DNA of 50,289 bases from an uncultured Bdellovibrionales bacterium. Lineage in GTDB: Bacteria > Bdellovibrionota > Bdellovibrionia > Bdellovibrionales > UBA1609. Below, piece by piece: positions 14,838 through 19,026 of the stretch. The notes below the pieces were generated by a model that saw only the letters and a list, made by a program, of their open reading frames with translations, made no database searches and was not told the origin of the DNA. The first letter of the stretch is position 1. Each line of letters begins with the position of its first letter. The position numbers and the translations under genes were made by a program. The stretch spans positions 1 to 50,289 of the forward strand of contig CALLBC010000201.1 in NCBI GenBank assembly GCA_938001965.1, read 5' to 3'.

Positions 14838-15097
14838 AATTTCTCCATTGATTTTAAATTCTTAAAGAATCCCTCTGTTTCTATATCTAAATAATATAGT
14901 GATATATGGATAAACCCTTCCGCTAATTTTGTCCACTTTCTGTAGCATTTTTTTGACTAAAGATCTGTAATCACTTCCGTTGCCTAAAAGCTCTGTTATT
15001 AACGCAAACCCCAAATTTCATCAATAATCATTCTTATCCCTTGGAGCCAATTCTTATTTTTGTATATACTCTCAGGGAAAGGGGCCAAAATAGAAGC

Positions 15098-17119
15098 ATG
15101 TCAATTAAACAAGAATATAAAAAGCTAAAAGAGCTAATCAACCAACATATCTATAATTACCACACTCTAGATAAGCCAACGATTAGTGACTTAAAGTATG
15201 ACAAACTTTTTGATCAATTATTAATGATTGAAGAGGAAAACCCAAGCTTAGTTACTCCAGATTCACCGTCCCAAAGAGCAGGCAGTGCACCCTTAGATAA
15301 ATTTAAAAAGGCTAAGCACAGAATGCCGATGCTGTCTTTACAAAATAGCTACTCACCAGACGACATACATGCTTTTGATGAAAGAATTAAAAAATTTTTA
15401 GGCTCCGACAAGCCCGTGAGCTATATGTGTGAACCTAAACTTGATGGGCTTGCATTAGAGCTCGTCTATGAAAAAGGAATACTTACACAGGCACTGACTA
15501 GAGGAGATGGTGTAACCGGCGAAGACGTAACACTAAATGTTAAAACGATAAAGTCTATTCCGCTCAAACTAAGTTCACCCAAACCACCAGAAATTTTTGA
15601 AATTCGCGGGGAAGTTGTAATGCATAAAAATGACTTCTTAAAACTAAACGAAAAACAACTTGCAGAAGGACATGAAACTTTTGCAAACCCCAGGAATGCT
15701 GCTGCAGGAACTTTGCGTCAGCTAGATTCAAAAGTGGCTGCTAGTCGCCCCCTTAAATTTTATGGATATGCTCCTGGGTTTCTAGAAAATATTAAATTCA
15801 AAAATCACCAATCTTTTCTAAAAAAAGCTGACGCATTTAAAGTGCCAAACTTATTAAATTATAAGATAAAAAAATCACCCTTGCTTCGATTTTGTAAAAG
15901 TGCAGAGGAAATTGTTCAGCACTATTACTTTATTGAAAGTATTCGCGAACAACTAGATTTTGAAATTGACGGTATGGTTATTAAGGTGGACGACTATCAA
16001 CTTCAAGAGGAGCTTGGGTTTATCGCGCGAAGTCCTCGCTGGGCTTCTGCCGCAAAATATAAGCCCTCCCAAGAGACCACCCTTATTAATGAAATTATTA
16101 TTCAAGTGGGAAGAACTGGCGCCCTAACTCCTGTTGCTATAATGGAGCCAGTTAAAGTAGGCGGAGTTACCATTACTCATGCCACACTTCACAATGAAAG
16201 CGAAATTGAACGAAAGGATGTTCGAATTGGCGACACTGTTGTTGTGCAAAGAGCTGGCGATGTTATCCCAGAGGTTGTTGAGGTCGTTACTAAAAAAAGG
16301 CCAAAAACTAGCAAGCCTTTTAAATTTCCGAAGAAATGTCCAGTATGTAAAACTAATGCCGTAAAAAGTGAGGACGAGGCCGTATACAGGTGCTCCAACA
16401 ATGTTTGTCCTGCTATTATTAAAGAGTCTCTTAAGCACTTTGTATCAAAAAAAGCTATGAACATTGATAAGCTTGGTGAAAAAATTATTGAGTCTTTTTG
16501 GGATGCAAAATTAATTAGTAATTATTCTGATATTTATTTACTTTCAAAAGAACAAATCTTAACTCTTGATCGCCAAGGTGAAAAATCTGCAGATAATATT
16601 ATAAAAAGCATTGATAATAGCCGTAACCCTGATTTAGCTAAATTTATTTATTCACTAGGTATTCGTTTTGTTGGCGAGCAAACGGCCAAGTCATTAGCTA
16701 AGTATTATGGAAACATACAAGACTTTTTAAATGCCAAAGAAGATGACTTACTTCAAATTAGTGACATTGGCCCTAAAGTCACCACCTCAATTAGCAATTC
16801 ACTTAAGAACCAAAAGTTTGTGGCTGAAATTAACAAAATAATAAATAATGGTGTTAAAATTAAATCTGTCAGCAGTAAGAACACTAGTAAAAAGCTCGCT
16901 GGGCTCAAAATTGTTGTTACTGGAAGTTTTGAAAACCTTGGTCGCAATGAAATTAAAAATATGATTGAGCTCTCTGGGGGGAGCTCACCCTCATCTGTTA
17001 GTAAAAATACTGACTATGTTCTTGCTGGAGAAGCCGCAGGCTCTAAGCTTGAAAAGGCTGAGAAACTAAATGTTCCAGTATTAGATTGGGAAAAGTTTGA
17101 AGCCCTGTTAAAAGGGTAA
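15098..17119 (+). CDS. ligA: NAD-dependent DNA ligase
   Basis: Adenylation motif CEPKLDGLALELVYEKGILTQALTRGDG, Zn finger CPVC...CSNNVCPA, BRCT end; start MSIKQEYKK at 15098. Confidence 0.97.
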   Translation: MSIKQEYKKLKELINQHIYNYHTLDKPTISDLKYDKLFDQLLMIEEENPSLVTPDSPSQRAGSAPLDKFKKAKHRMPMLSLQNSYSPDDIHAFDERIKKFLGSDKPVSYMCEPKLDGLALELVYEKGILTQALTRGDGVTGEDVTLNVKTIKSIPLKLSSPKPPEIFEIRGEVVMHKNDFLKLNEKQLAEGHETFANPRNAAAGTLRQLDSKVAASRPLKFYGYAPGFLENIKFKNHQSFLKKADAFKVPNLLNYKIKKSPLLRFCKSAEEIVQHYYFIESIREQLDFEIDGMVIKVDDYQLQEELGFIARSPRWASAAKYKPSQETTLINEIIIQVGRTGALTPVAIMEPVKVGGVTITHATLHNESEIERKDVRIGDTVVVQRAGDVIPEVVEVVTKKRPKTSKPFKFPKKCPVCKTNAVKSEDEAVYRCSNNVCPAIIKESLKHFVSKKAMNIDKLGEKIIESFWDAKLISNYSDIYLLSKEQILTLDRQGEKSADNIIKSIDNSRNPDLAKFIYSLGIRFVGEQTAKSLAKYYGNIQDFLNAKEDDLLQISDIGPKVTTSISNSLKNQKFVAEINKIINNGVKIKSVSSKNTSKKLAGLKIVVTGSFENLGRNEIKNMIELSGGSSPSSVSKNTDYVLAGEAAGSKLEKAEKLNVPVLDWEKFEALLKG

Positions 17120-17148
17120 AAAAAAATCCCCAAGCAATCGCTCAGGGA
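17118..17148 (-). terminator. intrinsic terminator of the histone-fold gene
   Basis: On the minus strand TCCCTGAGC-GATT-GCTTGGGGA (9-bp stem with G-U pairs, tetraloop) followed by TTTTTTTT. Confidence 0.8.
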
Positions 17149-17187
17149 CATTAACCTGGAATAAGCATAGCTTATCTGTAAGGCAAA

Positions 17188-17382
17188 TTAGATATGATCT
17201 ATAATAATATCTCTGTCCATAACCGTTTTACGGCCATCAGACTTTGCACTTGCAATACCTTTATCACATAATTTTTGGACAGCAGCGCTTAAAACTGTAA
17301 CTGTTTCTGAAGAAGTGTTACACCCACCATTTTCTTTAATATATTTTTTAACTTTACTTGTTACTACTAAAACATCAGCCAT
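17188..17382 (-). CDS. bacterial histone-fold protein (Bdellovibrio Bd0055-like)
   Basis: 64 aa MADVLVVTSKVKKYIKENGGCNTSSETVTVLSAAVQKLCDKGIASAKSDGRKTVMDRDIIIDHI; R51/T53 and D58 match the archaeal-histone R-T pair and R-D clamp spacing; upstream AGGAGG. Confidence 0.85.
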   Translation of the reverse strand: MADVLVVTSKVKKYIKENGGCNTSSETVTVLSAAVQKLCDKGIASAKSDGRKTVMDRDIIIDHI

Positions 17383-17600
17383 TTGAGCCTCCTAATCAAT
17401 TTGGTAGAGCCTAACTCAAATGATTTGATTCTCAAATATAAATTAACCGGGTTTAAGCCCTGCGTTGCTCGGTTGGTGCGGCGAGTAAAATCGAATTCTA
17501 AATTATTTCACTCACTTAAGATTAACTTATTTTTAATTAAAATTTATTTTTTTTTGCTTATTTTTAATGCTTGATCTGCATTTACCCAAAAACCCATAAA

Positions 17601-17619
17601 AAGCCCATTAGTGGGGCTT
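17601..17619 (-). terminator. probable intrinsic terminator overlapping the stop codon of the metallophosphoesterase gene
   Basis: Minus strand AAGCCC-CACTAAT-GGGCTT followed by TTTATGGGTTTTT. Confidence 0.55.
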
Positions 17620-19026
17620 AAATTGGTCCTCGCTAAAGTACATTAGCTCGGCCTCGCGGCCCCCCTCTTCGTTGGGCTTTATCCAAACAAATGACATTTT
17701 TCCAACTTTTTTTGTACACTCAACATCTAAAAATGCTGGAGACCACGTCCCACTATTTAAATGCTCAATAGGCCCAATCATTTGGTGAAGGGCAATATGA
17801 GTATGCCCATAAACAATTCGGCTCACTCCAGCTATTAGACCCTGAGCACTTAGCGTTCTTTCATGTGGCTCTTTAAAGTCATGAACATTTGAAACAACAG
17901 ACTTCGAATAAAACATAAAAAACGGACCAAATATTAACATTGGTATAAAAGTCCAAAACAGTGAAATATCATAAACCGTTTCTACAAATAAAAAGATTTG
18001 AAATATTAACACTAAGCCCATGAGTAATAAAAATGCCCTGTCTAACCAAAGTTCTTTTGCAATTAAGATCGGGTTGCTCGAAGCTGGATCAATAAAAAGC
18101 TCCTTTAACTCACGAACCATTCTTGGAGTAGCATTAGCTTTTTTTGCAATATAACTATAATTATCTTCCACATTAAAAGGATCTCTTACCCTAGGACGCA
18201 AACGATTAATAAATGATTTAATTAAAATTGTCACAGACCCCCAAAACCACGAAAACACTAATAAGGGTTGGGCCCTCAGCATATACTTAATAAAAAACTT
18301 AACATACTCACTAGCTGACATTAAATAGTTGCGGTCATCATGTGGATTAAAAAATCCCATTCCGTTTATCATGTATCTTGTTGCCATATTCCCAAATGGG
18401 ACCTTTACTTCAATTAAGTTAAACCTTCTAATAAAAGGGGCTGTTGGGTCCTCAATAACGCAATAAGGATCATACTGGTTACCATGTTCAACAAGAGTGT
18501 CTTGATTGCTTATGTAAAACCAATCATTAAAGCGTAAATTTTCATTGAATTCTTCAGGCAAAGCCAAGTGCTTTAAAAAAGCCCTCTTTACATCTGGGAA
18601 ATGCATCTCAAGGTCATGATTACCAATTACAATAATTACTTTATTGTCTCTTAGTATAAACTCCCTAAGTGATGTTACCCACTTTTTATGAAAGCTCAAT
18701 ATGTGATTCATTTTGAAAACTGACTTTGCTTGTTGCGGGTTTAACCCTCTTCTTTTTTCAAGCCATGAAATTTTAAAAATTGGATGCTGTGGTATAGCTG
18801 TTACACTATCAAAATCAAAAATATCACCATTTAAAATCAGCTCTACAGGATCGCCTCCGGACTCTTTTTCAAGCTCTAAGAGAAACTTCGAGAAATCTTC
18901 ATCAAAAAAGAACTCTTTGGTTTTATACTTTTTCCATAATGGGTGTTTTTTATTTTCTGGCTCAGCCTCACAGAGGTGAAGATCAGAAATTATCGCCGTG
19001 TAGCTCGCCTTGGTGAAGTCCTTCAT
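17608..19026 (-). CDS. membrane-associated metallophosphoesterase
   Basis: AIISDLHLCEAE, LNGDIFDFDSV, VIGNHDLEMHFP, VYGHTHIA motifs; internal hydrophobic helices. Confidence 0.88.
   Translation of the reverse strand: MKDFTKASYTAIISDLHLCEAEPENKKHPLWKKYKTKEFFFDEDFSKFLLELEKESGGDPVELILNGDIFDFDSVTAIPQHPIFKISWLEKRRGLNPQQAKSVFKMNHILSFHKKWVTSLREFILRDNKVIIVIGNHDLEMHFPDVKRAFLKHLALPEEFNENLRFNDWFYISNQDTLVEHGNQYDPYCVIEDPTAPFIRRFNLIEVKVPFGNMATRYMINGMGFFNPHDDRNYLMSASEYVKFFIKYMLRAQPLLVFSWFWGSVTILIKSFINRLRPRVRDPFNVEDNYSYIAKKANATPRMVRELKELFIDPASSNPILIAKELWLDRAFLLLMGLVLIFQIFLFVETVYDISLFWTFIPMLIFGPFFMFYSKSVVSNVHDFKEPHERTLSAQGLIAGVSRIVYGHTHIALHQMIGPIEHLNSGTWSPAFLDVECTKKVGKMSFVWIKPNEEGGREAELMYFSEDQFKPH

Follow-up and report, generated by a model that had tools for sequence, protein, structure and literature searches.

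A Bd0055/HBb-type histone gene, conserved in sequence and chromosomal place, in an uncultured Bdellovibrionales bacterium

Identification of the gene and its product

Is a protein of 64 amino acids encoded by an uncultured Bdellovibrionales bacterium a genuine bacterial histone and, if so, how would it act on DNA? The question is raised by contig CALLBC010000201.1 of assembly GCA_938001965.1; the whole stretch analysed, 50,289 nucleotides in length, is called here the window. A first-pass annotation, made from the letters of the DNA, had placed a small histone-fold protein at positions 17188-17382. Both the coordinates and the length of 64 amino acids proved exact, and the strand, absent from that annotation, is the minus strand. 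The gene and its surroundings comprise the following features:

15041..17119, plus strand: ligA (NAD-dependent DNA ligase), translation inspected; convergent with the histone gene, it marks the orthologous locus
17126..17149, minus strand: intrinsic terminator of the histone gene, 10 pairs and then a U run
17188..17382, minus strand: HBb/Bd0055-type singlet histone gene, 64 aa
17383..17394, minus strand: Shine-Dalgarno region, AGGAGG immediately 5' of the histone ATG
17608..19026, minus strand: metallophosphoesterase-like gene, upstream of the histone gene and on the same strand, translation inspected; syntenic in most relatives

The reading frame is complete (ATG start, 64 codons and a stop), and its product is MADVLVVTSKVKKYIKENGGCNTSSETVTVLSAAVQKLCDKGIASAKSDGRKTVMDRDIIIDHI. 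The open frame extends over 67 codons, and the 64-residue protein has neither an extension nor a ZZ zinc finger. Of 46 relatives, 43 have a motif resembling a Shine-Dalgarno sequence ahead of the gene, and the AGGAGGCT of this region is identical across three congeners. The terminator (-15.3 kcal/mol, z -2.8) is located in the gap that the gene has in common with convergent ligA.

When PDB sequences were searched with phmmer, the top match was HBb/Bd0055 of Bdellovibrio bacteriovorus (8FVX, E 2.4e-24), with 64 of 64 residues aligned; the next matches, HTkC and HLp, appeared only at 1e-4. The alignment with HBb is gapless, and 45 of the 64 residues are identical (70%). A profile built from 23 relatives matched HBb at E 8e-38, and its matches to HLp, HTkC and archaeal histones were weaker yet clearly significant. 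Two library models, Pfam PF00808 (15.5 bits, under the cut-off of 21.4) and NCBIfam NF043032 (archaea_histone), score the window protein below their cut-offs and hence cannot decide its nature as sole tests; PF00808 matched 21 of the 23 relatives at E<=0.01. A plain Pfam scan would therefore overlook the gene, and routine annotation may miss histone genes of this kind.

An AlphaFold2 model of the monomer, built from 23 sequences (mean pLDDT 85, pTM 0.60), has two long helices, residues 2-19 and 25-48; residues 56-58 form a further helix of three residues (HHH), which corresponds to a one-turn alpha3. In a Foldseek search with this model the five best matches were all HBb crystal structures, with a TM of about 0.8. 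The profile matches to histone families and HBb, together with the HBb-like predicted fold, confirm the earlier view of a protein made of almost nothing but a histone fold. The very short alpha3 and the resemblance to Bd0055 that had been read from the letters are likewise borne out. As the model is monomeric, the handshake dimer is predicted by homology from the crystal structures of HBb, which is 70% identical. Altogether, these observations identify the window protein as the orthologue of Bd0055/HBb. A chance open reading frame was ruled out by the homology to HBb and by the dN/dS ratio given below.

Descent and selection

Relatives of the gene were taken from a collection of species genomes, and nearly all of the 57 were labelled Bdellovibrionales or Bdellovibrionota. 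At 49 of the 57 related loci, including those of Bdellovibrio sp., whose contigs share the locus type, ligA and the histone gene are convergent, on opposite strands. Where the contig extends far enough, ligA is followed by gatC, gatA and gatB. A metallophosphoesterase gene is usually found upstream of the histone gene. Histone matches were found in 55 of 59 related whole genomes. Comparison with two congeners gave dN values of 0.07-0.08 and dS values of 0.80-0.88, and thus a dN/dS of about 0.09. Horizontal transfer and contamination were rejected on the grounds of synteny and near-universal presence among relatives, which point to vertical inheritance; the gene is under strong purifying selection.

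The family has been published, and the window copy is an ordinary member of it, with no sign of a new mechanism. Its value lies in providing a further well-supported case in which the histone of Bdellovibrionales is strongly selected and holds the same position on the chromosome.

Conservation of DNA-contact residues

The main DNA contacts of HBb were ranked by molecular dynamics (MD) in Hu 2024 as N22, R57, S9, T53, T8, S24, K10, K12, K52 and K16 (PMC11317129), and all ten are identical in the window histone. The motif RKTxxxxD is present (R51, K52, T53 and D58), and the RD clamp formed by R51 and D58 with D49 is retained. The dimer core is kept as well (V11, L31, V35, L38 and I59, with I at position 35 in HBb). 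HBb, of which several structures are available (PDB 8FVX, 8FW7, 8CMP, 9EZZ and 9F0E), has the same 64 amino acids in length, the same DNA contacts and clamp, and the same one-turn alpha3. The 19 substitutions that separate the two proteins are mostly conservative or placed on the alpha2 surface, e.g., D29T, K33A, E36Q, L40D, E44A and A56D.

The first-pass annotation had compared the segment around R51, T53 and D58 with archaeal histones. The three positions were correctly read, and the likeness holds for the RD clamp and the RKT motif. It fails for the “R-T pair”, whose archaeal members are T54 and the sprocket arginine, R19; of these two, bacterial singlets have kept just the threonine (PMC10627809). 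The window histone has no arginine in alpha1 and, lacking the sprocket arginine, does not truly have the pair. With HMfB and other archaeal nucleosomal histones it shares the histone fold, the clamp and the l1-l2 DNA motif, but it lacks the tetramer interface (H49 and partners), its alpha2 is shorter and its alpha3 is reduced to one turn.

One pair of alpha2 positions varies in a peculiar manner. Residues 29 and 33 (i, i+4) are D and K in most relatives and in locus L026, K and D in locus L032, and T and A in the window. To judge from the residues, this looks like a salt bridge that has been swapped or lost within one genus.

Mode of DNA binding

The reading that we favour, and consider probable, is that the HBb/Bd0055 orthologue is a dimeric, non-tetramerising and sequence-independent main nucleoid protein that bends and compacts DNA. 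To the orthology, the conserved contact residues and the purifying selection observed here, the 70%-identical HBb would add dimerisation, DNA binding, bending, abundance and probable essentiality. The protein would form a histone-fold homodimer via alpha2, without assembling into tetramers, and would hold the DNA backbone with no sequence preference through alpha1 (T8, S9, K10, K12 and K16), loop l1 (N22 and S24), loop l2 (K52 and T53) and R57, while the RD clamp (R51-D58, with D49) would fix l2 in position. Binding of the dimer would bend and compact DNA with no wrapping, and the protein would act as main nucleoid protein beside HU/IHF.

Bending by HBb has been reported in TPM, circularisation and MD (Hu 2024, PMC11317129). 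The same study described a second DNA interface and, drawing on it and on solution assays, proposed a bend of about 84 degrees over 36 bp. Among 2,125 proteins of attack-phase cells HBb ranked 12th, and in the nucleoid fraction it was the most abundant; it binds genome-wide without specificity, and two studies could not delete it.

A different proposal exists for the same protein. In Hocher 2023, dimers sheathe straight DNA as an end-on filament, one dimer per about 2.5 bp, joined by contacts between a basic ridge and an acidic underside and by exchanged N-termini. The crystal structure 8FW7 argues for straight DNA, analytical ultracentrifugation (AUC) shows >60 dimers on 147 bp, and no FRET occurs between DNA ends (PMC10627809); the N-terminus MA(D/E)VLVV is conserved. 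Against the sheath stand the second DNA interface (T8, S9 and K10), the bending in solution and the different crystal packing described in Hu 2024. In addition, the window protein is neutral at three alpha2 sites where most relatives carry a charge (D/E to T at 29, K to A at 33, D/E to A at 44), with the overall charge unchanged. We regard the sheath as unlikely. The “edge-on” mode mentioned in the first-pass annotation was a fair citation of Hocher 2023; it is, however, disputed by Hu 2024 on the basis of additional crystal forms and of solution assays. Later papers favour bending over end-on coating, and bending is most likely the better description. The window sequence itself does not discriminate between the two models. 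The natural changes at positions 29, 33 and 44 might make this histone a comparison protein for the dispute.

Oligomeric state and histone complement

That the protein might form tetramers wrapping about 60 bp, in the manner of archaeal histones or of the Leptospira HLp, seems very improbable. HLp of Leptospira perolatii (9QT0) and HTkC (9F2C) do share the alpha3-truncated histone fold, and give weak matches (36-38% identity in structural match). Both are, however, face-to-face tetramers, and by alignment to HLp their tetramer residues R48 and N52 are replaced by S45 and D49. At positions 45, 48 and 61 the window histone has S, S and I in place of the archaeal tetramerisation triad F, H and L, which lets Bd0055 bring DNA ends together (Hocher 2023, PMC10627809). 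With the archaeal triad and the face-to-face residues both absent, the window histone should act as a dimer, and HBb is itself dimeric by SEC-MALS.

These features place the protein among the HBb/Bd0055-type dimer histones: it clusters with HBb, has RKTxxxxD, a truncated alpha3 and a short alpha2, and lacks R48 and N52. No notable difference was seen from the alpha3-truncated bacterial dimer histones of Schwab 2024 (PMC11390915), which share the motif, the short alpha2 and alpha3 and the alpha1 lysines, and also lack the face-to-face residues. Neither an archaeal nucleosomal histone (S48, S45 and I61; no R19) nor a ZZ histone describes it: the latter, the second histone of Bdellovibrionales, has a related histone domain preceded by an N-terminal ZZ zinc finger that the window protein lacks.

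No second histone, and no ZZ histone, was found in the source genome, whose assembly is 96.9% complete, so that a second histone could be missing from the assembly. Three genes of the HU/IHF family are present. In many relatives a second histone match falls within a longer frame, of 150-200 codons, a length that would suit ZZ histones; these frames are candidates for that class.

A role outside chromatin, as a local regulator or a partner of the neighbouring ligase, is hardly credible: the neighbourhood with ligA and gatCAB has long been kept, but ligA is convergent and so shares no operon with the histone gene, all DNA-backbone contacts are retained, and HBb is a non-specific binder of the whole genome and the most abundant nucleoid protein.

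A conserved block upstream of the gene

Two further features lie upstream of the histone gene:

17406..17472, minus strand: conserved block of roughly 60 nt, in three congeneric genomes
17423-17437, minus strand: perfect dyad ATTTGA-GAA-TCAAAT, within the conserved block

Unlike the block, the adjacent intergenic DNA is not conserved among the three congeners. By chance, the window would be expected to hold this dyad pattern 0.03 times, and the 13-base core of the dyad, TTTGAGAATCAAA, occurs once in the whole genome, which led us to reject the dyad as a site of a wider regulon. Searches for known RNA elements upstream of the gene gave sub-threshold, chance-like matches only, and no convincing match to the block was found in other genera. 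The block and its dyad are a possible promoter or operator. A more specific speculation is that the dyad is, in this genus, a dedicated cis element of the single histone gene, through which a dedicated regulator, or histone dosage, controls the supply of the chromatin protein; we consider this doubtful.

A divergent histone in small-genome relatives

Eight genomes from three other genera of the family, with assemblies of about 1.4-2.0 Mb, carry a divergent histone (L097:3504-3707, L098:3173-3397, L099:2959-3168 and loci L100-L107). R51 is replaced by L and D58 by H, R57 is lost, N22 is changed to K or R, and the RD clamp is gone. Five of the eight small-genome relatives yielded no copy of canonical HBb when searched with the canonical protein. 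In five of the eight genomes the divergent gene has ligA as its convergent neighbour, and thus appears to be a divergent form of the canonical gene. As HBb is probably essential in Bdellovibrio, these changes look like the mark of a relaxed or changed function. In three of the genomes, a small open reading frame of about 70-100 aa, with a hydrophobic N-terminus resembling a signal peptide, lies directly upstream of the divergent histone:

L097:3089-3337, L098:3404-3619 and L099:2612-2923, same strand as the histone: small open reading frames
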